Assembly (NCBI RefSeq): GCF_013912065.1
Contig: NZ_JACESA010000002.1
Location: 232,475-296,474 of the forward strand
Reading direction: 5' to 3'
From: Brevundimonas sp.
Lineage (GTDB): Bacteria > Pseudomonadota > Alphaproteobacteria > Caulobacterales > Caulobacteraceae
Length of the DNA: 64,000 bases
The notes under the pieces were generated by a model that saw only the letters and a program-made list of their open reading frames with translations, had not been told where the DNA came from and made no database searches. Below, one piece after another: positions 1,606 to 59,848 of the stretch (position 1 is its first letter; each line of letters begins with the position of its first letter). A program made the position numbers and the translations under genes.

Positions 1606-2283
1606 TCAGCCCGACAGGCCGGCGAGAGGGTCGACGCCGATCAGCCGGGGATGGAGCAGGATCAGGGTCCCGTAACAGACCAGGCCGGCCAGACCGCGCC
1701 ACAGATCCGAGGGTCGAAAAAGGCTCACGAAGGGGGTGTCCCGGGTCGCTCTTCGCATGTCGCGCCACAGGTTTAGGCGTCTTGCGCCCTCGCGACGATC
1801 AATCATGGTCTGGCCGATTAGCGCCATGGCGCCGAGCAGCCCGAAGAGCACGACATGGGCCAGATCGCCATTGGCGACCAGATGGGCCAGGGCCCACAAG
1901 GCCAGGGCCGTCAGGATGGGGTGGCGGATCCACCGGGTCAGGCCGGGGCGGGTCGGGTCGAAAGGCGCTGGGCCGCCTCCGCCTCCGAAGGAGAAGGGAT
2001 TGGGCCGTCCGAGCGTCAAGGCGAGGATCAGAACCGCCGCGGCCATCGCCCCGAGGACCAAGAGGTTCTGCCAGGGGGCCCAGGGCCAGATCATCAGGCG
2101 CGGCGCCCGGTTCGTCGCCATAATCAACCAGGCCAGAAGGCCCAGAGACAGAACCGAATAGATCCAAGTGAACCCCGTCTGTCCTAGCATCCGCTTCAGA
2201 GGCGCCCGAAGCCCCGGTCGAAGCGGGGCCCAGTGCGCGATGAAGAACGCCGCCAGGGCGGCGATGAACTCAATCCAATCCAC
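1606..2283 (-). CDS. nnrU: NnrU family membrane protein
   Basis: The 225-residue protein is very hydrophobic, with about five to six predicted membrane segments, and begins with a helix rich in Ala and Phe that contains H-W-A-P-L-R-P. The motif RHPILTALALWALAHLVANGD in the middle is the hallmark of the NnrU/methyltransferase-like membrane family. NnrU was first linked to nitrite and nitric oxide reduction in Rhodobacter, and its biochemical role is still not settled. It lies 51 bp downstream of nrdG on the same strand, so it is probably the last gene of the nrdD operon. Linking an NO-related membrane protein to anaerobic DNA precursor synthesis fits co-regulation by the FNR-type box at 5039. 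Family assignment is confident; function is only inferred. Confidence 0.85.
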   Translation of the reverse strand: MDWIEFIAALAAFFIAHWAPLRPGLRAPLKRMLGQTGFTWIYSVLSLGLLAWLIMATNRAPRLMIWPWAPWQNLLVLGAMAAAVLILALTLGRPNPFSFGGGGGPAPFDPTRPGLTRWIRHPILTALALWALAHLVANGDLAHVVLFGLLGAMALIGQTMIDRREGARRLNLWRDMRRATRDTPFVSLFRPSDLWRGLAGLVCYGTLILLHPRLIGVDPLAGLSG

Positions 2284-2334
2284 GACAGGCTCCTGATCGA
2301 AGTCCGGGATCGGGCTCGGTCCGGCCCGTACGGG

Positions 2335-2982
2335 TCAGGCCGGGCCCCATTCCATCTCCTCATCCGTCACCTGCAGCCCGGAGTCCAGACAACCTGTGGA
2401 CCGAAAAGCCTGAAGCCGCGACGGGCCGGCGCCTTCCTGTTCCAGGTCCTCGTGCAGACGGTCGAGACGCGACGCCGGATGCAGCCGAGGGTGGATCGTG
2501 GTGCGCAGATCGTGGGGTTTTCCACTATCCAACAGCAGCCGCAGGCTGGCGCGGGCGCGACGGCCGCTGCCGCGGGCGCGGGTCAGGTCGTCATAGTCGT
2601 CGAAGGCGGTCTTGACGTCGAAACCCACCCAATCCACCAGCGGCAGAACCCGCGCCAACCGCGACGGATAGGCGCCGCCGGTGTGCAGGCCGATGCGGAA
2701 GCCCAGGGATCGAACCTGGACGACGGCATCGATCAAGCCCTTCTGCAATGTGGGTTCGCCGCCGCTGAAGACGACGGCGTCCAGCAGGCCGCGCCGACGA
2801 TGCAGAAAATCGAGCGTCGTCGGCCAGGACAGAAGGGCGGCGCCCCTGACGGGCAGGAGGTGGGGATTGTGGCAGTAGCCGCAGCGCCAGGGACACCCCT
2901 GGCAAAAGACGGTCGCCGCCAACTGACCGGGCCAGTCGCAGACCGACAGAGGCTCGAACCCGCCGACGAGCAGCTCACTCAA
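2335..2982 (-). CDS. nrdG: Anaerobic ribonucleotide reductase activating enzyme (radical SAM)
   Basis: This 215-residue radical SAM protein has the [4Fe-4S] motif CPWRCGYC (C-x3-C-x2-C) near residue 33, preceded by an extra Cys (FCQGCPW). Glycine-rich SAM-binding FSGGEPTLQ follows. Activases of this type use SAM to abstract hydrogen from a glycine in the partner reductase. The start is a TTG at 2980-2982. It overlaps the stop of the small glycyl-radical gene upstream (TTGAGTGA), which implies translational coupling. It belongs to the NrdG-like group with a longer N-terminal part than E. coli NrdG. The target here should be the Gly of the neighbouring 59-residue protein rather than the C-terminus of the large NrdD chain. 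Confidence 0.92.
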   Translation of the reverse strand: MSELLVGGFEPLSVCDWPGQLAATVFCQGCPWRCGYCHNPHLLPVRGAALLSWPTTLDFLHRRRGLLDAVVFSGGEPTLQKGLIDAVVQVRSLGFRIGLHTGGAYPSRLARVLPLVDWVGFDVKTAFDDYDDLTRARGSGRRARASLRLLLDSGKPHDLRTTIHPRLHPASRLDRLHEDLEQEGAGPSRLQAFRSTGCLDSGLQVTDEEMEWGPA

Positions 2983-3154
2983 GACCGGCGGCCCGTTCGC
3001 TGAAATAGAGACGCTCGCGGAACTCGCCCTTCTTGCCGAGATTGAACGACGAAACGGGGCGGTGATAGCCCATCACCCGCGTCCACACTTCGCAGGGTTG
3101 ACGCTCGCTCTGGGGAATACGGTCCGCAGCTGAGGCGGGACGGTTCTGAGACAT
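2975..3154 (-). CDS. Separate glycyl-radical domain of the class III ribonucleotide reductase (59 aa)
   Basis: A short frame of 59 residues starts at ATG 3154 after an AGGAG ribosome binding site. Its core reads CEVWTRVMGYHRPVSSFN. R-V-x-G-Y is the glycyl radical motif of NrdD and pyruvate formate-lyase, so Gly29 is the expected radical site. The large NrdD chain next door ends right after its zinc site and carries no RVxGY motif. The two frames differ (+1 relation, 31 bp gap), so this is not a simple read-through stop. The gene is followed directly by nrdG, the enzyme that would activate it. Similar tiny proteins are annotated in databases as anaerobic reductase NrdD-like, as I recall. I infer that it forms the radical-bearing subunit of a split class III enzyme. 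Confidence 0.85.
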   Translation of the reverse strand: MSQNRPASAADRIPQSERQPCEVWTRVMGYHRPVSSFNLGKKGEFRERLYFSERAAGLE

Positions 3155-3185
3155 GATAAGCTCCTGGGTTTCGAAGGGGACAGTG

Positions 3186-4910
3186 TCAGGCGGCCGCGCG
3201 GGCGCGACGGGCCAAGATCACTTCGTCGCATTTGGGGCAGAACGGGTGCTCGCCGGCGAGGTAGCCGTGCGTGGGGCAGATGGAATAGGTCGGGGTGACG
3301 GTGATGTAAGGCAGGCGGAAATTGGCCAGGGCGCGCTGGACGAGTTTGCGACAGGCCTCGGCGCTGGAAAGGCGCGCGCCCATATACAGATGGAGCACCG
3401 TGCCGCCGGTGTATTTGGACTGCAGGATCTGTTGGCGATCCAGAGCCTCGAACGGGTCGTCGGTGTAGCCGACCGGAAGCTGGCTCGAGTTGGTGTAATA
3501 GGGGTTTTCGGGCGTTCCGGCCTGGAGGATGTCGGGCCAACGACTCCGGTCTTCCTTGGCGAAACGATAGGTGGCGCCTTCGGCCGGCGTGGCTTCCAGA
3601 TTGTACATGTGGCCGGTCTCGTCCTGGAAGGCGAGGATCCGGGCGCGCACATGATCCAAAAGCCGCTCGGCCAGGGCGTGGCCCGCCGGGGTGGTGACGT
3701 CCTCCTCGTCGTCGGTGAAGTTTCGGATCATCTCGTTGATCCCGTTCACCCCCAGGGTGGAGAAGTGGTTTCGCAGCGTGCCCAGATAACGCCGCGTGTA
3801 GGGAAACAGGCCGTCGTCCATCAGGCGCTGGATCTCCGTGCGCTTGATCTCCAGACTGTCGCGGCCCAGGTCCAGCAGCCGGTCGAGATCAGCCAGAAGC
3901 GCGGCCTCGTCGCCCTTGCGCCTGTAGCCGAGCCGGGCGCAGTTGATGGTGACGACCCCGAGCGACCCGGTCTGTTCGGCGCTCCCGAACAGACCGTTGC
4001 CGCGCTTGAGCAGTTCCGTCAGGTCGAGCTGAAGCCGGCAGCACATGGACCGGACCATGTGCGGCTTGAGATCGGAGTTCAGGAAATTCTGAAAATAGGG
4101 CAGGCCGTATTTGGCCGTCATGGCGAATAGCCGTTCCGCGTTCTCGTGATCCCAGGGAAAGTCCGGCGTGATGTTGTAGGTCGGGATGGGGAAGGTGAAG
4201 GCGCGGCCCAGGGCGTCGCCTTCGCTCATGACCTCGATGAAGGCGCGGTTGATCATGTCCATCTCCGGCTGGAGGTCGCCATAGGCGAAGGGCATGGCGT
4301 CACCCCCGATCATTGGAATCTGCGCCTTCAGATCATCAGGGCAGGTCCAGTCGAAGGTCAGATTGGTGAAGGGCGTCTGCGTGCCCCACCGGGAGGGCAC
4401 ATTGAGATTGAACACCATCTCCTGAAGACACTGACGCACCGCTTCATAGGGCATGGCGTCTTTGCGGACGAACGGCGCCATATAGGTGTCGAACGAGCTG
4501 AAGGCCTGGGCGCCCGCCCATTCGTTCTGCAGGGCGCCCAGGAAGTTGACGACCTGACCGACTGCGCTGGACAGGTGGCGAGGCGGCGCCGACTCGATCT
4601 TGTTGGCCACCCCGTTCAAGCCTTCTGTGAGCAGGGTTCTGAGCGACCAGCCCGCGCAATAGCCGCTCAGCATGTCCAGATCGTGGATGTGCAGGTCGCC
4701 CTCGCGGTGGGCGGCGCCGACGGCGGGCGGATAGAGGTGGGACAGCCAGTAGTTGGCGATCACCTTGCCGGAGACATTCAGAATCAGACCCCCCAGGGAA
4801 TAGCCCTGGTTGGCGTTCGCGTTCACCCGCCAGTCCTGCCGGTCCACATATTCGCGAACCGTCTGAACGACGTCGATGGATGGGGCGGCTGGGCGGGTGG
4901 CGGTCAACAT
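3186..4910 (-). CDS. nrdD: Anaerobic (class III) ribonucleoside-triphosphate reductase, large chain without glycyl radical domain
   Basis: The 574-residue protein reduces ribonucleotides to deoxyribonucleotides without oxygen. N-terminal NQGYSLGGL and HIHDLDMLSGYCAGWS carry the substrate-site residues, with Cys85 a candidate active-site Cys. VRSMCCRLQLD contains the likely thiyl-radical Cys. The C-terminus has a zinc-binding pattern CPTHGYL then CPKC. Unlike E. coli NrdD (about 710 aa) it has no N-terminal ATP-cone and stops after the zinc site, so the conserved RVxGY glycyl loop is missing. That loop is supplied by the 59-residue gene downstream. The start ATG at 4908-4910 has an AGGAA about 11 nt upstream. 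A perfect FNR-type box lies 135 bp upstream, which fits expression under low oxygen. Confidence 0.93.
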   Translation of the reverse strand: MLTATRPAAPSIDVVQTVREYVDRQDWRVNANANQGYSLGGLILNVSGKVIANYWLSHLYPPAVGAAHREGDLHIHDLDMLSGYCAGWSLRTLLTEGLNGVANKIESAPPRHLSSAVGQVVNFLGALQNEWAGAQAFSSFDTYMAPFVRKDAMPYEAVRQCLQEMVFNLNVPSRWGTQTPFTNLTFDWTCPDDLKAQIPMIGGDAMPFAYGDLQPEMDMINRAFIEVMSEGDALGRAFTFPIPTYNITPDFPWDHENAERLFAMTAKYGLPYFQNFLNSDLKPHMVRSMCCRLQLDLTELLKRGNGLFGSAEQTGSLGVVTINCARLGYRRKGDEAALLADLDRLLDLGRDSLEIKRTEIQRLMDDGLFPYTRRYLGTLRNHFSTLGVNGINEMIRNFTDDEEDVTTPAGHALAERLLDHVRARILAFQDETGHMYNLEATPAEGATYRFAKEDRSRWPDILQAGTPENPYYTNSSQLPVGYTDDPFEALDRQQILQSKYTGGTVLHLYMGARLSSAEACRKLVQRALANFRLPYITVTPTYSICPTHGYLAGEHPFCPKCDEVILARRARAAA

Positions 4911-5038
4911 ATGGTATGTCGTTCCTGGTGAATGACTACATGTTGGGTTTTTTCTTAGGCCCGGGTCAATGCGGCGCGGTGCGGCATCGGGCCGCGCGGC
5001 GCCGACCGATAAGCCGAATTCAGATGTCGTTCCCGGGA

Positions 5039-5052
5039 TTGATCGCCATCAA
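5039..5052. promoter_or_regulatory. FNR/FixK-type box between nrdD and nnrS
   Basis: The sequence TTGATCGCCATCAA is a perfect inverted repeat matching the FNR/FixK consensus TTGAT-N4-ATCAA. It lies midway in the divergent region, about 135 bp from the nrdD start and 136 bp from the nnrS start, so it could serve either promoter. Confidence 0.8.
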
Positions 5053-5119
5053 GACGAGGACGGCGACCGCGCACGACGGGCGCTGTGACGCGCCGAAACA
5101 TCGATCAGAGAACAGGAGT

Positions 5120-5133
5120 TTGCGCCAAGGCAA
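5120..5133. promoter_or_regulatory. TTGCG-type Crp/Fnr-family box upstream of nnrS
   Basis: TTGCGCCAAGGCAA has the FNR-like 5-4-5 layout but with half-site TTGCG and one mismatch in the second arm (GGCAA instead of CGCAA). Its centre is 55 bp before the nnrS start. It is one of four similar sites in this window. Confidence 0.55.
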
Positions 5134-5181
5134 GGCGCCCGTCGCCGGGCGGCGCCAGAAGGGAGAGCAAGGAGTTCCGTC

Positions 5182-6360
5182 ATGACCACCGATCGCCCCC
5201 TTCGCGCTCTTTCAACGCCCGTCCTGTTCAGCTTAGGGCTTCGGCCCTTCTTCCTGTTCGGCGCCCTGTGGGGAGCGATGGCGGCGCCGCTCTGGGTCTA
5301 TGTTCTGGCGCATGGCGACGGACGGATCGCCGGTCGCGCGGGGATGGACTGGCATATCCACGAGATGCTGTTCGGCTATGTCGGCGCCGTCATCGGTGGT
5401 TTTCTTCTGACCGCCGTGCCGAACTGGACCGGTCGCGCGCCACTCGCGGGAACGCCGCTGGCGGTGTTGTTCGGGCTCTGGGCCGTCGGACGTCTGGCCC
5501 TGTCGACCCCCGGAGCCGACGCCTTCACCCTGCTGATCCTCGACGGCCTCTATCTGACAGGGCTGAGCCTGGTCGTCTGGCGCGACGTCCTGGCGGCGCG
5601 CAACTGGCGCAATCTCGGCGTCGCCCTGGCCGTAACCGGACTGGCCGCCGCCAATCTGGCCTTCCACCTCAGGTCAGGAGAGGCCGGCGGTCTGGACGCC
5701 GTGGTGCGCGCCGGTCTAGGCCTGATCGTCATGCTTCTGGTCCTGATCGGCGGCCGTGTGACGCCGAACTTCACCCGCAATTGGCTGGCGCGCCAGGGAA
5801 GAGGGCGGCTGCCCGCCCCTGCCTCGCGGTTCGATCTGGGGGTCATGGCGTTTACCCTGACGGCTCTCGTCGCCTGGGTGTGGCGGGCCGACCATCCGGC
5901 GGTCGGAGTGGTCCTGGCCTTGGCGGGGCTCTTGAACGGCGTGCGGCTGGCCCGGTGGTGCGGCTGGCGCACCGTCGGCGAGCCGCTGGTCTGGATTCTG
6001 CACCTCGGCTACGCCTGGCTCGCCGTCGGCCTGGTCCTGCTGGGGCTGGCCGCCATGGGGGCGAGCTTTGCGCCTTCGGCGGGCGTCCACGCCCTGACGA
6101 CCGGGGCCATGGGGGTGATGATCCTGGCGGTGATGACCCGGGCCACGCGCGGCCATACGGGACGGCCGCTGGAGGCGGACCGGGCCACGGTGGTCTTGTA
6201 TGGGCTCGCCAATCTCGCCGCCGTGGTGCGGGTGGCGGGCGGGCTGTGGCCGGAGGTCTATGGCGCGGCCCTGATCGTCGCGGGCGGCCTTTGGGCGGCG
6301 TCTTTGCTCGGCTACGCCCTTGTCTACGGGCCGATGTTGCTAGGACCGCGCTTGAGGTGA
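5182..6360 (+). CDS. nnrS: NnrS family heme-copper membrane protein
   Basis: The 392-residue protein is almost entirely membrane helices (about twelve). It opens with FSLGLRPFFLFGALWGAM and has the motif GMDWHIHEMLFGYVGAVI, both typical of NnrS. NnrS proteins bind heme and copper in the membrane and protect cells against nitric oxide stress. They are regulated by NO or low oxygen in denitrifiers. The start ATG is preceded by AAGGAG (GCAAGGAGTTCCGTC). Two regulator boxes of different type lie upstream at 5039 and 5120. A second nnrS lies at 56368-57552, and the two are clear paralogues (shared FSLGLRPFFLFGALW). It converges with the crp gene at 6399. Confidence 0.93.
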   Translation: MTTDRPLRALSTPVLFSLGLRPFFLFGALWGAMAAPLWVYVLAHGDGRIAGRAGMDWHIHEMLFGYVGAVIGGFLLTAVPNWTGRAPLAGTPLAVLFGLWAVGRLALSTPGADAFTLLILDGLYLTGLSLVVWRDVLAARNWRNLGVALAVTGLAAANLAFHLRSGEAGGLDAVVRAGLGLIVMLLVLIGGRVTPNFTRNWLARQGRGRLPAPASRFDLGVMAFTLTALVAWVWRADHPAVGVVLALAGLLNGVRLARWCGWRTVGEPLVWILHLGYAWLAVGLVLLGLAAMGASFAPSAGVHALTTGAMGVMILAVMTRATRGHTGRPLEADRATVVLYGLANLAAVVRVAGGLWPEVYGAALIVAGGLWAASLLGYALVYGPMLLGPRLR

Positions 6361-6398
6361 GGCGCCGCGGCTTGACCGGTGGATCGTTCGGCCTGAAC

Positions 6399-7211
6399 TC
6401 AGGCCGTGCGCGGCGCGGCGGAGACGCCGGAGGGGGCGGGCGGCGGAGGCGCGCCGGGCGTCGTGGTCAGGCTTTCGGTCCCCGCCCGTCCGATCGGAAG
6501 CGGGCCGGCCTTGACGTGGTTGTCGATGAGCGGCGAGGGGCGGGCCAGGCGCTCGAGCGCGCGAGGGCGCGCCAGGTGAATTTCCGGGCCTCGCACCTGA
6601 ACCCCGTAGTCCGCCAGTTGGGCGAAGGCGCGCGACAGATTCTCGGGCGTCATGCCGAGGAGAGAGGCCAGGACGCGTTTCCCATACGGCAAGACGATAT
6701 GATGAGGGTCGCCCTGCCGGGCGCTTTGCGCCAGAAGATAGTTGGCCACGCGTTCCAGGCAGCCGCGCAGCTTGTGAGCCTTCACCATACGCACCACGCC
6801 GCGGTAGCAGCCGGCCAATTCCTGCACTACGGCGAAACCGAAGGCGGGGTCTTGCCGCGTGGTCCGGCGCAACGCCTCGCCGGACAGCATCAGCACCTCC
6901 GACCGCTCCAGGGTCCGTGCGGACATCAAGGCCGGCGCCTCGAGCATCACGGCCGCCAGAATAAAGGTCGAGACGGGGCGCAGAACGGCGAGAACCGCCT
7001 CTTTCTCTTTCCAACTCCCCTGGAGCTCCACAGCGCCGTCCAGCAAGACATATAGAAAGTCGACCGGATCGCCCTCCATCAGCAGAGTGGTGCCGGCGGG
7101 AAACCGTTGCAGAAAAGCCCCGGCCGTGGCGTCGCGGAAGACGCTCGGGGTCATGTCCGCGAACAGGGGCAGGGTGCGGATGCGGTCAAGGTCTGTCTGA
7201 CGAATGGACAT
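6399..7211 (-). CDS. Crp/Fnr-family transcription regulator (paralogue of the one at 51729)
   Basis: About 270 residues: a cyclic-nucleotide-binding-like fold (FPAGTTLLMEGDPVDFLYVLLDGAVELQG), a dimer helix and a C-terminal helix-turn-helix with KRVLASLLGMTPENLSRAF. In the recognition helix E-N-L-S-R keeps the ExxSR pattern that reads TTGA half-sites in FNR. There is no N-terminal cysteine cluster, so it does not sense oxygen through an FNR-type iron-sulfur centre. I chose the ATG at 7211 because the paralogue aligns from MxxRxxDLDRxRxLPLF. A Pro/Ala-rich tail of about 40 residues follows the DNA-binding domain. A perfect TTGAT-N4-ATCAA box lies 33 bp upstream, suggesting autoregulation or control by FixJ/FixK-type factors. 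Confidence 0.9.
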   Translation of the reverse strand: MSIRQTDLDRIRTLPLFADMTPSVFRDATAGAFLQRFPAGTTLLMEGDPVDFLYVLLDGAVELQGSWKEKEAVLAVLRPVSTFILAAVMLEAPALMSARTLERSEVLMLSGEALRRTTRQDPAFGFAVVQELAGCYRGVVRMVKAHKLRGCLERVANYLLAQSARQGDPHHIVLPYGKRVLASLLGMTPENLSRAFAQLADYGVQVRGPEIHLARPRALERLARPSPLIDNHVKAGPLPIGRAGTESLTTTPGAPPPPAPSGVSAAPRTA

Positions 7212-7244
7212 GACCCACAGGATCACGTCGGACGAGATTTCCGA

Positions 7245-7258
7245 TTGATCCCGATCAA
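7245..7258. promoter_or_regulatory. FNR/FixK-type box upstream of the crp gene at 6399-7211
   Basis: TTGATCCCGATCAA is a perfect 5-4-5 inverted repeat. Its centre is about 40 bp upstream of the chosen crp start, so it may overlap the promoter and repress, or serve the rightward unit starting at 7383. Confidence 0.8.
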
Positions 7259-7311
7259 ATCGCCTTCAAAGGGGTGAAGACTCCGCCCGTCGGTGTTCAA
7301 AGGCGTCCGAT

Positions 7312-7325
7312 TTGCGCAAAGGCAA
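7312..7325. promoter_or_regulatory. TTGCG-type Crp/Fnr-family box upstream of 7383
   Basis: TTGCGCAAAGGCAA matches TTGCG-N4-CGCAA with one mismatch. Like the box at 5120, it ends in AAGGCAAGGCG context. It is centred about 65 bp before the start at 7383. Confidence 0.5.
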
Positions 7326-7382
7326 GGCGGGCGACGCCGAGACCGGTCATTCTGACGCGCACGAGATGTTGCGGCGGACCGG

Positions 7383-7817
7383 ATGGCCATGGCCCCACGA
7401 GCGGAGAAGACGGGAAAGACCGGGATCCGCGCGGCCGCGTGGGCCCTGTCCCAAGCCGTTCGCCTGGCGGATCGGCTGGAGCCGGTTCATGCGGCCGACG
7501 ACAACTGGCCCCATGGGCTGGGCGATCTACTCGCCGAATTGCAGGACGGCCTGGACCTTTGTCAGGCGCGCGAGACTGGGCGGTTCGCACAGGATCAGGC
7601 CCCGGCCTCTCAGACGCGGCGTCGCGCTGAGATCCTTCGCCGCGCTCGAGCTCTGGGGGCGGTCGAGCGCGCCCTGGAGCAACTCTCGGCGTCCGCCTCC
7701 GCACCCGCAGACTGGCTTCGTCTTCAGGCGAGCTGCCGGGTCGTTACGCGCGCTCTGCGCGATTGCTGGGCGTTCGAAAGGCCGAGCGGCGGCTGCGCTT
7801 GCGCTGAGGCGGCATGA
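7383..7817 (+). CDS. Hypothetical helical protein, 144 aa
   Basis: I do not recognise a family. The protein is rich in Ala, Arg and Leu, and predicted mostly helical, with segments such as QTRRRAEILRRARALGAVERALEQL that could form a coiled coil. It ends with a Cys-containing tail (GGCACAEAA). There is no signal peptide or membrane segment. Its stop overlaps the start of the following receiver gene (ATGA), so both are made from one transcript. The neighbourhood (lone receiver, FixJ, FixL) suggests a role in oxygen signalling, but this is inference from position only. The start could instead be the second Met, two codons later. Confidence 0.6.
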   Translation: MAMAPRAEKTGKTGIRAAAWALSQAVRLADRLEPVHAADDNWPHGLGDLLAELQDGLDLCQARETGRFAQDQAPASQTRRRAEILRRARALGAVERALEQLSASASAPADWLRLQASCRVVTRALRDCWAFERPSGGCACAEAA

Positions 7818-8224
7818 TGGTCGCGCCCCTCGTCCTTCTGGTCGATGACGACCCTGCGGTGGCGCAATCCGTCGCCTTTGCGCTCGAAACCGAAGGCTTC
7901 AGGGTCCGACGATATGGCAGCGCCGAGGCGCTGCTCGAGGCCGTGGAAGATCGCGTCGGGGAGGGGGCGGGATTGCGGGCGGCGCGCTGCCTCGTCCTCG
8001 ACTATCATCTGCCGGGTCTGGACGGGCTGGCGCTTCTGAATCGACTGAGAGCCGCGTCGCTCGCCGGCGGCGCCATACTGATCACCACCCACCCGCGCCG
8101 CGGGGTCTGCGAAGACGCCGCCCGCGTCGGCGCGGTCCTGCTTGAGAAGCCCCTCATCGGAGGCGCCCTGCTCGAGGCCGTCAGGGACGCCTGCGGCCTC
8201 AGCCGCCTCGCGTCAGAACCGTGA
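7814..8224 (+). CDS. Stand-alone receiver-domain protein beside FixLJ
   Basis: The 136-residue protein is one response-regulator receiver domain with no output domain. The acidic pocket VDDDP is near residue 10, the phosphorylatable Asp is about residue 63 in LVLDYHLPGLDG, and the Thr and Lys (ILITTHP, LLEKPL) are present, so it should be able to accept phosphate. In Sinorhizobium and Caulobacter a receiver-like protein, FixT, inhibits FixL and sits near fixLJ. This gene could have a similar role, but it keeps an intact receiver site, so a phosphate-sink role is equally possible. Its 3' end overlaps the convergent fixJ by 26 bp. Confidence 0.82.
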   Translation: MMVAPLVLLVDDDPAVAQSVAFALETEGFRVRRYGSAEALLEAVEDRVGEGAGLRAARCLVLDYHLPGLDGLALLNRLRAASLAGGAILITTHPRRGVCEDAARVGAVLLEKPLIGGALLEAVRDACGLSRLASEP

Positions 8225-8837
8225 CGCGAACCAGCTCGGACAGGCTGCGCACCTGCATCTTGGTCATCACATTGGCCCGGTAGACCTCGACGGTGCGCGG
8301 ACTGATGCCGAGATCATAGGCGATCACCTTGTTGGCATGGCCGGCGACGAGCCCCTCCAGAACCTCTAGCTCGCGTTGGGACAGCGAAGCGAGGCGCTCG
8401 GCGACGAGAGGGTCCCGTGCGGCGGTGCGGGCGCCGTCGGGTTCCGCGAGCGCGCGCTGGAGCGCCTCGATCAAGACGGCGTCGTCGAACGGCTTTTCGA
8501 TGAAGTCCTGGACGCCGGCGCGCATCGCCTCCACGGCCAAGGCCAGGTCGGCGTGTCCCGTCATCACCACGATCGGAGTGGTCGCGCCGCTCGCGCGCAG
8601 ACGCCGCGCCAGATCGATACCGCTCATCTCGGGCATGCGCACATCAGTGAGGATGCAGCCCGACAGGGGTTCGCGGCGCGCCGCCTCCAGCAGTTCGAGC
8701 GGTGAGGCGTAAAGCCGCGGCTCCAGGTCGTTCGTCGAGATCAGAAAGGCGAGGGAGTCGCGCAGGGCCGCATCGTCATCGACCACGTGCACTGTCGTGT
8801 CAGCCTGGATCATCGTCGCCATCGGTGTCGTCTTCAT
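8199..8837 (-). CDS. fixJ: FixJ-type response regulator
   Basis: The 212-residue protein has a receiver domain ([14 protein letters not shown], Asp65 in [11 protein letters not shown], Lys in FIEKPF) and a LuxR-type helix-turn-helix ([19 protein letters not shown], then [16 protein letters not shown]). It is the classic FixJ layout and should be phosphorylated by FixL when oxygen is low, then activate fixK-like genes. The start overlaps the end of fixL by 38 bp. Starts at residues 6 or 9 (MATMIQ, MIQ) are also possible. The downstream targets probably include one or more of the four Crp/Fnr genes in this window. Confidence 0.9.
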
Positions 8838-10317
8838 CTGCGGTCTTCAAGGTAAAGGCGAACTGCGCGCCGCCCTCCGGACGCGGGGTCGCCCAGATGC
8901 GTCCGCCATGCGCTTCGACGATGGTTCGGCAGATCGACAGACCCACGCCCATTCCCGTTCGCTTGGTGGTCACAAAGGGCTGGAAAAGCATATCCGCCAC
9001 CGACGGGTCCAGTCCCGATCCCGTATCGGCGACGGTGACGCAGGCCTCGTCGGCGCATCGCGTGAGCGATATGGTCAGATCCCGCCGGGGCTGGTCTTCC
9101 ATGGCCTCGATGGCGTTGCGGATCAGATTGAGCACGACCTGCTGGATCTGGACACGATCCGCCAACACCAGATCGACGTCGGGCGGGAAATCGAGCGTGA
9201 CGCGCACGCCATGCTCTTTGGCGCCGACCAGCGCCAGGGCGCCGGCCTCCTCGATCAGCTTGGGCAGGCTTTCGACGCGGCGTTCCACCTCGCCGCGCGC
9301 GACGAAGTCGCGCAGCCGGCGAATGATGTCGCCCGCGCGCAAGGCCTGGGCTCCGGCCTTGCGAAGCGCGTCCTTGAGCACCTCGCGCGGCAGTTCCTCA
9401 CGATCGAGCAGACGCGCCGAGCCGTTGAGATAGTTGGCCATGGCGGTCAGGGGCTGGTTCAGTTCGTGGGCGAGGGCCGAGGCCATTTCGCCCATGGCGG
9501 TCAAGCGCGAGATATGGATCAGCTCGGTCTGCAACTCCTGTAGCCGGGTCTCCGTGGCCTGGCGGTCCGTCAGGTCGCGAATAAAGCCGGTGAAGTAGCG
9601 TTCCTCGCCGGACTGCATCTCGCCGACCGCCAGTTCGAGGGGAAAGGTCGCCCCATCGCGCCTTTGACCGACCACGACCCGACCCTGGCCGATAATCCGT
9701 CTTTCGCCTGTCCGCCGATAGCGCTCGAGATAATCGTCGTGTTGCGCCTTGTAGGGCTCGGGCATCAGCCGTTTGACATTCTCCCCGACGACCTCGCTGG
9801 CCGTCCAGCCGAACATCCGCTCGGCCGCCGGGCTGAAGGACCTTATGACGCCCCTTTCGCTGATCACGACCATGGCGTCAGGGACCGTGTCCAGGATGGA
9901 CTGCAGATGCGCCTCGCGCGCGCGTAGGTGAGCGTTGGCCGCGACGACGCCGCGGCGGCCCCGGTGAAGAAGTTCCCCGCCCACGCTCAAGCCGATTCCG
10001 ACAGCCAGAAAGACCAGGGCGGTGGCGATGTCGCCGCCGGTCCTTGGCCCAGCCTGCCAGGTGATCAGCAAACCCCCGGCGGCGCCGAGCAAGGCGGCGA
10101 GGGCGCCGGCGCCGAATCCGCCCACGGCGGCGGCGGCCGCGACGGCAGGGACGAAGAAGAGAAAAGCGATCCGCTCGCCCAGCATGGGCGCCATCGCCCA
10201 CCGCGCGGCATAGGCCAGGCCCACTCCGCCCAGAGCGATCGCGGCGCCGACCAGATGCCGGTGCGGTCGCACCCGTTCGGCCCAAAAGAGCGGCGCGCTG
10301 ATTCGGCTGGTTTTCAT
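8800..10317 (-). CDS. fixL: FixL-type heme PAS oxygen-sensor histidine kinase
   Basis: The 505-residue protein has an N-terminal block of about four membrane helices (residues 20-115), a PAS domain (130-250), a HisKA domain with AHELNQP (His284) and an HATPase domain with N, G1 and G2 boxes. In the PAS domain, His193 in QHDDYLERY aligns with the proximal heme His of FixL (His194 in S. meliloti). Arg213 in the GRVV segment matches the distal-pocket Arg (Arg214). All key residues are therefore kept, and the protein should bind heme and be switched off by oxygen. It is transcribed with fixJ. A TTGCG-type palindrome lies about 88 bp upstream and is shared with the divergent pseudoazurin gene. Confidence 0.92.
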
Positions 10318-57586: not shown

Positions 57587-59848
57587 TCATCCGCATTTGG
57601 AATAGCCGCACTCGAGACAACTGTCGCAACCCTCCTTGCGCACCAGGCCTGGCGCGCCGCAGCGGGGGCAGGCCGAGGGCGCCGGCCCGGGCGCTGAGGA
57701 AACGGGATGAGGTTCGATGGCTTCGGCGGACTCGCATCCGCTTTCGGCGGCGAGGCTAAGGTGCCGCTCAATCACTGCGCCGATCGCTGCGGGAAGCGAC
57801 GGCGTGTAGCGCCCTTCCATCCAGGCGCCGCCGCCGGGATCGAACACCGCCTTCAACTCCTCGGCGACAAAGGAGACGTCCCCGCCGCGCCGGAAGACCG
57901 CCGAGACCATCCGGGTCAGGGCGACGGTCCAGGCGTAGTGCGCCATGTTCTTGGAGTTGACGAAGATCTCGAACGGTCGCCGCGCCCCTTCGTCATCGGG
58001 GTCCGCGTCATTGATGGTGACGTAGACGGCGTGGGCGTCCAGCGGCCAGCGGATCTTGTAGGTCGCGCCTTCGAGCCGACCGGGGCGCGGCGTCAGAGGA
58101 TCGACGTCGGACGACGGAGCCGCCGCCGGAACGGAGGCCGGCGCCTCGACGCTGAGCACCGAACCGGTGATGGCGTTGGGGCGATAGGTGGTCAGCCCCT
58201 TGCAACCCATCCGATAGCCTTGACGATAGACATCCGAAAACGCCGAGAAGTCGATGTTTTCCGGGCAGTTGATCGTCTTCGAGATCGAGCTGTCGATCTG
58301 CGCCTGCGCCGCCGACTGCATCCTCAGGTGATGCTCCGGGGTCAGGGTCTGGGCGCTGACGAAGGCGTCGCCGGGCGCGCTGTCGAGCGGCGCGTCAGGG
58401 CCTTTGAGCGTCTTCCATAAGGCCAGGGCGTAGTCTTCGACGGCCTCCTCACGTCGCGTCCCGTCGGGCTGCAGGACTTTGCGCGTATAGGCGAAAGCAA
58501 ACACGGGCTCGATGCCGGACGAGACATTGCCGGCCAGGAGGGAGGTGGTGCCCGTCGGCGCGATCGAGGTCAGACAGCCGTTGCGCAGGCCGTGAAGCCC
58601 GATCAGTTCCCGAGTCTCCGCATCCAGACTTGCGAGATTGGGCCGCTGCAGCATCGCGGGGTCATAGAGGGGGAAGGCGCCCTTTTCGGCCGCCAGTTCA
58701 GCCGAGGCGCGATAGGCTTCTCGCCGGATCAGGCCCAGCCACCGCCCGGTCAGGGCGACGGCGCGGTCTTCTCCATAGCGGGCGCCGCAGAAGATCAGGG
58801 CGTCGGCTAGGCCGGTCACGCCGAGGCCAAGCCGGCGTTTGGCGCGGGCTTCGGCCTCCTGGGCGGGCAGGGGAAAACGGGAAATGTCGATGACATTGTC
58901 CAACATCCGCACGGCAGTGCGGGTGAGCCCGGCCAACTCCTGTTCGTCCAGGGCCGCATCGGGCTCGAAAGGCGCCGAGACGAGGCGGGCCAGATTGATC
59001 GACCCGAGAAGACAGGCTCCATAAGGCGGCAACATCTGTTCGCCGCAGGGATTGCTGGCCGCGATGACTTCGCAATGCGCCAAATTGTTCGCGGCATTGA
59101 CCCGGTCGATGAAGATCACGCCCGGTTCCGCCGCGTCATAAGTGGCCTGCATCAGTCGGGTCCAGAGATCCGTGGCGCGGACCGTGCGTCGGATTTCGCC
59201 GTCGAACACCAGGGGCCAGTCCGCATCCGCGTCCAGCGCGGCCATGAAGGCGTCGGGAACCAGAACCGAGAGATTGAAATTCCTGAAGCGGACCGCGTCG
59301 CGTTTGGCGTCGATGAAGGCCTCGATGTCCGGATGGTCGATGCGCAAACAGCCCATCATCGCCCCGCGCCTCTGACCGGCGGACATGATGGTGCGGCACA
59401 TCGAATCCCACACGTCCATGAAACTGAGCGGACCCGAAGCCTCCGCGCCGACCCCTCGCACGAGAGCGCCGGAGGGGCGAACTGTGGAAAAGTCCATGCC
59501 GACGCCGCCGCCCTGCTGCAGGGTGACGGCGGCTTCGCGCAGATGCTGGAAGATGCCGTCCAGATCGTCCGGGACGACGCCCATGACGAAACAGTTGAAC
59601 AAGGTCACGGCGCGACCTGTGCCGGCGCCGGCGAGGATTCGTCCAGCGGGCAGGAACCGGTAGGCGTCCAGCGTCTCGCGGAACCGGGCCCGCCATCGCG
59701 CCCGGGTCTTGGTCGGCTCCGCTTCGGCCAGGGCGGCCGCCACCCGGTCCCATGTGGCTTCGACGGTGGCGTCTCCCGTCCCCTCGTGCGGGCGGAAGCG
59801 ATATTTGCTGTTCCAGATTTCTCCGGCCAAGGGACTGTCGAACGCCAT
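57587..59848 (-). CDS. nrdJ: Class II (adenosylcobalamin-dependent) ribonucleotide reductase
   Basis: The 753-residue protein contains NCFVMGVVPDDLDGIFQHLRE, GGGVGMDFS, SNPCGEQMLPPYGACLLGSINLA (the active-site Cys region) and SIAPTGTTSLLAGNVSSGIEPVF. These are catalytic blocks shared by class I/II reductases, and there is no small-subunit gene nearby. C-terminal CPRCGAPGL, then CDSCLECGYSKCG is the zinc-ribbon tail of NrdJ. It needs vitamin B12 but neither needs nor is harmed by oxygen. The cell thus also has an oxygen-tolerant route besides class III NrdD. Confidence 0.95.
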   Translation of the reverse strand: MAFDSPLAGEIWNSKYRFRPHEGTGDATVEATWDRVAAALAEAEPTKTRARWRARFRETLDAYRFLPAGRILAGAGTGRAVTLFNCFVMGVVPDDLDGIFQHLREAAVTLQQGGGVGMDFSTVRPSGALVRGVGAEASGPLSFMDVWDSMCRTIMSAGQRRGAMMGCLRIDHPDIEAFIDAKRDAVRFRNFNLSVLVPDAFMAALDADADWPLVFDGEIRRTVRATDLWTRLMQATYDAAEPGVIFIDRVNAANNLAHCEVIAASNPCGEQMLPPYGACLLGSINLARLVSAPFEPDAALDEQELAGLTRTAVRMLDNVIDISRFPLPAQEAEARAKRRLGLGVTGLADALIFCGARYGEDRAVALTGRWLGLIRREAYRASAELAAEKGAFPLYDPAMLQRPNLASLDAETRELIGLHGLRNGCLTSIAPTGTTSLLAGNVSSGIEPVFAFAYTRKVLQPDGTRREEAVEDYALALWKTLKGPDAPLDSAPGDAFVSAQTLTPEHHLRMQSAAQAQIDSSISKTINCPENIDFSAFSDVYRQGYRMGCKGLTTYRPNAITGSVLSVEAPASVPAAAPSSDVDPLTPRPGRLEGATYKIRWPLDAHAVYVTINDADPDDEGARRPFEIFVNSKNMAHYAWTVALTRMVSAVFRRGGDVSFVAEELKAVFDPGGGAWMEGRYTPSLPAAIGAVIERHLSLAAESGCESAEAIEPHPVSSAPGPAPSACPRCGAPGLVRKEGCDSCLECGYSKCG

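Follow-up and report, generated by a model that had tools for sequence, protein, structure and literature searches.

The stretch of DNA analysed here (the window: 64,000 nucleotides (nt) of Brevundimonas sp., contig NZ_JACESA010000002.1, positions 232,475 to 296,474) carries the genes of a class III ribonucleotide reductase. Its large chain, NrdD, ends without the glycyl radical loop, and a loop of this kind is found in the product of a small gene that lies between nrdD and nrdG, the gene of the activase. An earlier note on this DNA had proposed that the radical glycine is held on a separate subunit, a claim that was followed up in related loci, whole genomes and viral contigs and by structure prediction.

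The nrdD, loop and nrdG genes of the window

3186..4910, minus strand: nrdD, large chain of a class III ribonucleotide reductase, 574 amino acids (aa); PF13597 matched over positions 2-531 of 562 only
4038..4043, minus strand: Cys290-Cys291 of the MCCR finger-loop motif, expected thiyl radical site (read from the sequence)
3228..3278, minus strand: four-cysteine zinc motif of the NrdD C-terminal region, CPTHGYLAGEHPFCPKC (read from the sequence)
3161..3165, minus strand: AGGAG ribosome-binding site of the small gene, spacer 6
2975..3154, minus strand: putative radical-loop subunit, 59 aa, a lone glycyl radical domain (PF13597 530-562, E 6.7e-8)
3068..3070, minus strand: codon of Gly29 in RVMGY, the predicted radical glycine, invariant in the 56 cellular and 80 viral small chains aligned
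2335..2982, minus strand: nrdG, radical S-adenosylmethionine (SAM) activase of the NrdG2 type, 215 aa (TIGR02495, 185 bits, cut-off 131)

The window NrdD matches the profile NF006126 with 1021 bits (positions 98-652 of 684), and its barrel matches PF13597 with 561 bits (2-531 of 562, E 3e-168). The chain ends in CPTHGYLAGEHPFCPKCDEVILARRARAAA, the last cysteine of the zinc motif being 13 residues from the C terminus, and the RVxGY loop is absent from it, just as the earlier note had claimed; no ATP-cone was detected in the window NrdD. The MCCR motif occupies residues 289-292, and its cysteine pair is invariant in alignments A2 and A3; the meaning of a finger-loop MGCR or MCCR motif for class III reductases has been described (PMC9669993). 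By analogy with known NrdD proteins, the four-cysteine motif probably binds zinc.

The small open reading frame (ORF) differs in frame from nrdD, starts 31 nt past its stop codon behind its own AGGAG site and overlaps nrdG by 8 nt, which is the arrangement that had been described. It contains CEVWTRVMGYHRP and encodes the chain MSQNRPASAADRIPQSERQPCEVWTRVMGYHRPVSSFNLGKKGEFRERLYFSERAAGLE, with the radical loop CEVWTRVMGY. The single Pfam NRDD model, PF13597, is thus divided between the two chains at about position 530, with positions 532-562 found solely in the small chain. At E 1e-3 only this model matched the small chain, so that a radical domain of the pyruvate formate-lyase type was not recognized, and a search with it against the PDB sequences gave no match at E 1. 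Of the marks of a class III enzyme, the window has the NRDD barrel, the MCCR motif, the four-cysteine motif (by sequence) and the NrdG activase; what it lacks is an RVxGY loop at the C terminus of the same chain. Because the profile ends at position 531 in the large chain and the rest lies in the small one, the pair would work like NrdD, as two chains. An intron or intein was rejected as the cause of the split in the window, where just 31 nt separate the two genes and no insert is visible.

Conservation of the separate loop gene

Among 304 genome loci found with the large chain, the 80 nearest were kept and read by script. The loop was a separate ORF in 77 of them and fused to NrdD in none; the remaining three (L033, L045, and L099) could not be decided, as contig ends lie too near the gene. 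Frames and gaps were compared in 79 rows (the 77 loci, the window, and L002, whose small chain is identical to that of L041, so that the two are probably one gene). The loop gene lies in frame 2 relative to nrdD in 41 rows, frame 1 in 23, and frame 0 in 15, and the gap between the genes ranges from −32 to +289 nt (excluding L110, whose row was mis-picked), with a 4-nt overlap in 17 rows. A match to a ribosome-binding site precedes the loop gene in 76 of the 79 rows, with the choice of start based partly on that site. In 76 of the 77 related loci, the loop gene is followed by nrdG in the same orientation.

The median ratio of nonsynonymous to synonymous differences (pN/pS) of the loop ORF is 0.286, and only 1 of 1155 compared pairs reached 1 or more; judged by these ratios, purifying selection acts on the ORF. 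In an alignment of 56 small chains, 19 columns are invariant. The small-chain profile matches at least 7999 clusters of small proteins, which in their sources are mostly named "anaerobic ribonucleoside-triphosphate reductase" or "hypothetical protein". The matched loci bear names such as Brevundimonas, Paracoccus, Rhodopseudomonas, Magnetospirillum, Zymomonas, Ralstonia, Cupriavidus, Janthinobacterium, and Thiobacillus, and, among metagenome-assembled genomes, whose names can be wrong, Elusimicrobia, Acidobacteria, Desulfobulbaceae, Geobacteraceae, Thermoflexus, and Coriobacteriaceae.

Sole, unlinked and extra loop genes in whole genomes

Searches with PF13597 covered 20 whole genomes, 14 of them split, and 40 named genomes. 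All 14 split and all 40 named genomes had a single large chain without a loop and, apart from it, a loop, and a fused NrdD beside the split pair was found in none of them. In G268 and G509, both parts share one frame across stop codons and register as a single match, and an extra partial match occurs in 2 of the 40 named genomes (G520 and G506). Of 398 evenly drawn Pseudomonadota genomes, 56 had NrdD, which was split in 13 of those; among 198 genomes of Actinomycetota, the phylum of G506, 56 had matches, and only G506 was seen to be split.

In the genome G366, a distance of about 9 kb, with seven predicted genes on the opposite strand, separates nrdD (L249, 4042-1997) from the pair of loop gene and nrdG (13398-12444). 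At this distance, NrdD and the loop protein must meet in trans there.

It might be argued that the two frames are joined by a sequencing error, by frameshifting or by read-through, and that the product is an ordinary fused NrdD; the genes are indeed adjacent or close in most loci, and they share a frame in 15 of the 79 rows. However, all three relative frames occur, the gaps vary widely, nearly every loop gene has a ribosome-site match, the genes of G366 are unlinked, and viral contigs carry loops on their own (see below). This explanation was rejected and is, in our opinion, very improbable. The two outcomes named beforehand as fatal to the proposal, frames joined by a frameshift in relatives and an intact glycyl loop in the large chain, were looked for among the 80 nearest loci and with PF13597, respectively, and neither was seen.

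Magnetospirillum fulvum (L248, 4610-8223, plus strand) has a second lone loop gene, which is located apart from the nrdD operon and directly before two genes that, as judged by eye, are class I nrdA and nrdB.

A different role for the small gene would be that of a spare part for a complete NrdD, as YfiD (GrcA) is for another enzyme, and not that of an obligatory subunit. A lone radical domain follows the same logic in both cases, one more lone copy occurs in M. fulvum, and Eggerthellaceae-type genomes combine a full NrdD with a different lone loop protein. However, no complete NrdD was found in the 14 split and 40 named genomes; a spare part for a fused NrdD of the same genome was accordingly rejected for the split clade, and we regard this role as highly unlikely. 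The likeness to YfiD drawn in the earlier note thus holds for the logic of a lone domain but not for its role, since the small chain provides the only loop there is and is not a spare for a fused enzyme.

The proposed radical glycine of Cupriavidus necator

The NrdD encoded on pHG1 of C. necator H16 has 676 aa (76.19 kDa) and no loop. A separate coding sequence of 66 aa, H16_RS32675, bears the loop (Gly36) and is followed by nrdG. Siedow et al., writing in J Bacteriol in 1999, reportedly described a 76.2-kDa NrdD whose G650A mutant lost anaerobic growth, and Gly650 was taken as the radical site. On this reported mutant rests the possibility that the large chain uses another glycine and that the small ORF has a different role. 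However, Gly650 falls inside the zinc motif (SICPTHG650YL), RVMGY is invariant in the small chain, and the small-chain profile corresponds to the C terminus of NrdD, so that we can hardly credit a radical on Gly650. If the mutant was as reported, its growth defect would be real and the assignment of the radical site wrong, and we suggest that Gly36 of the 66-aa protein, in place of Gly650 of NrdD, be taken as the radical glycine of H16. In strain CH34, the loop is likewise a separate ORF. According to PMC2864759, NrdDG is essential for complete denitrification in H16, and the CH34 genes are Rmet_5137 (nrdD) and Rmet_5139 (nrdG), with one locus number between them.

Loops and large chains in viral contigs

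A search of IMG/VR with the small-chain profile gave 125 relatives, of which 80 were kept; the phage case rests on these contigs. All 80 loops lie within frames of 39-252 aa, three of them at a contig edge, and tblastn (E 1e-5) of the window NrdD and NrdG against the fetched flanks of the 80 gave no match. The 50 longest contigs (14.7-108 kb) were searched entire with PF13597: only the end part of the model was found in all 50, and an NrdD large chain in none, it being possible that the contigs are fragments. In 12 of the 13 loci tested, there are genes belonging to phage families (portal, tail, baseplate, endolysin, replication, polymerase, and clamp loader) at a distance of up to 5 kb.

RVMGY is kept in all 80 viral loops, part of the motif having been favored by the search patterns, and the cysteine preceding EVWTR is kept in 75. 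In the other five, this cysteine is lost, being Val in four and Ala in one (L198, L200, L214, L223, and L233). The median pN/pS of the viral loops is 0.36, and none of 114 pairs reached 1. All five proteins compared (four viral and the window protein) matched PHROG_4132 (E 1.6e-6 to 4.4e-11), over profile positions 114-162 of 179 only, which offers a likely function for a phage family without an assigned one. Lone loops are nearly absent from the GenBank phage records: tblastn of the window and four viral loops against 50,697 of them found only MT835493, whose source is a faecal metagenome, and the ANMV-1 virus.

Viral NrdD chains were also sorted. A motif filter divided 80 of them into 47 fused, 16 split, 15 loop-less, and 2 at a contig edge, with several of the loop-less showing a variant loop and three of the split (L333, L354, and L373) being doubtful; by inspection, at least 15 of the 80 have the split layout. 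In the phage locus L309, an insert separates the two genes. A viral contig of 313,762 bases (L247/L374) carries an insert-interrupted NrdD whose chain stops past the zinc motif, and a search of the entire contig at E 0.001 gave no match to the loop part of PF13597; this NrdD may rely on a loop subunit of the host. Another contig, of 43,875 bases (L305), has an NrdD without a loop and none within the 2 kb fetched downstream.

Evidence for and against a subunit acting in trans

The conserved split, the sole loop in the genome, the unlinked case, and the lone viral copies give good support to the earlier claim of a radical glycine on a separate subunit. We suggest that NrdD and the small chain together make up a class III reductase of two chains, in which the radical subunit acts in trans, and we put the probability of this reading at about 0.87.

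Several results weigh against it. Firstly, 11 of the 120 protein matches listed are close relatives (77-79% identity) that are fused; the other 109 have no loop in the chain, and a separate loop gene was not looked for beside them. As judged from these relatives, separateness is not required for function, and the expectation that all such large chains lack RVxGY fails at the level of the subfamily. Secondly, the small gene has a mean ribosome-site strength of −7.5 kcal/mol (n = 77) compared with −2.7 kcal/mol for random ATGs (n = 1540), a contrast that is biased by starts picked partly by ribosome site, and it does not differ from nrdD (−7.2 kcal/mol, n = 76, best ATG; p 0.15), so that the comparison gives no support for excess synthesis of the small subunit. 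Thirdly, structure prediction was equivocal. An AlphaFold2 run on 40 split-only rows (A2; 13 read-through pairs and 27 large chains) reached a predicted local distance difference test (pLDDT) score of 68.5 and left the loop unplaced (32-37 over residues 591-628). A run on 55 rows that included fused homologues, 11 from bacteria and 26 from viruses (A4), reached 89.0 and placed the loop (88-96 over 581-620, linker 65-76), with a finger loop of low confidence (33-56 over 271-300), owing to which the radical-transfer distance cannot be read from the model. Finally, we found no protein, electron paramagnetic resonance (EPR) or genetic data on the small chain itself.

The history of the split was followed on a tree of 112 chains built without the loop (93 split, 17 fused, and 2 unassigned; L294 is omitted, and L148, L149, L250, L259, L275, and L279 have no row, the filter having found no frame). 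Fused members are dispersed within a mostly split clade, and at least 11 changes between the two states are needed, compared with 16 for shuffled labels; well-supported branches force 3 of the 11. The deep branching order is unsure, as branches are long and the tree search was a quick one. In the outgroup rows, which are fused, the linker is tight (e.g., CGEETEVYSRVVGY). Eight of the 11 close fused proteins have a longer linker that keeps the E/D-R-Q/T-x-C-E segment of the small chain, and the other three (P0207, P0237, and P0238) have short linkers. The kept segment suggests that these eight proteins arose through re-fusion.

These results bear on the most serious competing explanation, in which the small chain is needed but sits in a permanent tight complex and is never exchanged, the split being a neutral fission that was reversed several times. 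The mostly adjacent genes, the several fused lineages within the split clade, and a translation signal no stronger than that of nrdD agree with it. The viral lone loops, the extra copy of M. fulvum, and the unlinked genes of G366 speak against it and fit trans action, but they are no proof of exchange after damage. We consider a permanent complex possible, at somewhat less than an even chance.

A separate loop protein of another kind was seen in L299 (2712-3077, plus strand). It has about 121 aa, ends in an NrdD-type loop, RRITGYLVGTMDRWNDAK, and matches PF13597 over 533-562. Such a protein accompanies a full-length NrdD in 4 of 198 genomes (L299, L300, L301, and L302 from G604, G680, G592, and G712, respectively), and its named relatives come from Eggerthella, Gordonibacter, and Paraeggerthella. 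It is a candidate for a true spare part of a fused class III reductase.

Other reductase and neighboring genes

Around the operon (window positions 1609-10317) lie genes for NnrU (2283-1609), NnrS (5182-6357), a CRP/FNR-like regulator (7226-6402), and two-component systems; judged by these genes, the neighborhood is of the denitrification type. The window also encodes a PF02867 reductase of 753 aa with a cysteine-rich C terminus (57587-59848, minus strand), by eye class II (NrdJ), and with a second PF02867 gene on contig C8 the Brevundimonas genome has at least three reductases.

Proposed mechanism and comparison with known systems

We infer that the radical is carried by the small chain, which would dock on the large chain and might be exchanged. 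In the two-chain reductase proposed here, the large chain would supply the barrel, the zinc site, and the cysteines of the finger loop. The radical glycine (Gly29) would be supplied by the subunit of about 60 aa, whose separate gene lies between nrdD and nrdG. NrdG2 would place the radical on the small subunit, whose loop would dock in the barrel at the position of the C terminus of the fused enzyme and hand the radical to one of the finger-loop cysteines. As no covalent bond links the chains, a radical subunit that oxygen has cut could be swapped and the large chain retained. Cheap replacement after oxygen damage is a plausible benefit of the split and is put forward as a proposal. Phages could provide a radical subunit of their own. 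In a wider form of the proposal, the radical glycine of class III reductases could be an exchangeable protein cofactor, which a broad bacterial clade would keep as a permanent small subunit and which phages would carry alone and feed, newly activated, into the host NrdD during infection; we give this nearly even odds. If true, the viral loop gene would be a phage auxiliary metabolic gene of about 60 residues acting on the anaerobic supply of deoxyribonucleoside triphosphates (dNTPs) of the host, and the Eggerthellaceae-type protein of about 121 aa would be a real spare part for the fused enzyme. A detached radical subunit would also offer a new approach to NrdG activation, oxygen damage, and half-site activity, as the radical domain could be titrated, labelled or swapped with the enzyme untouched.

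In the portions of the open-licence literature consulted, class III reductases carry the radical glycine within the catalytic chain, and no description of one with a separate radical subunit was found, earlier notice elsewhere being possible. With class III NrdD (PF13597; the double-cysteine MCCR group, PRK08270-like NF006126) and NrdG2, the window system shares the barrel, the MCCR and zinc motifs, the loop sequence, and the adjacent activase; it differs in that its radical loop is on a separate gene and that no ATP-cone was found in the window copy. Class I NrdA and NrdB likewise keep the stored radical on a separate protein. The class I radical is a tyrosyl or metal one, and its protein is unrelated to the small chain. 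The split class II enzyme NrdJa/NrdJb, as far as described in the parts of PMC4520616 and PMC9669993 consulted, is also a two-chain reductase with a separate C-terminal part, but it belongs to another class, uses another cofactor and has no radical glycine. Phage nrd genes, nrdD among them, are split by introns, inteins, and homing endonucleases, and PMC3653736 reports a split nrdD in six phage cases, those covered in the sections consulted being attributed to inserts or left unexplained; the loop gene, in contrast, is separated at a domain boundary without an insert and is conserved over many phyla. A further parallel is that of YfiD (GrcA) of E. coli and Y06I of phage T4, which are presented in the portion of PMC8683613 consulted as spare parts of pyruvate formate-lyase and are likewise small lone glycyl radical domains acting in trans, one of them carried by a phage. 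Unlike these, the window loop is of the NrdD type, has about 60 aa and has no complete enzyme to repair. The separate radical subunit is a concrete candidate for the question, raised in PMC8683613, of trans radical domains in glycyl radical enzymes beyond pyruvate formate-lyase.
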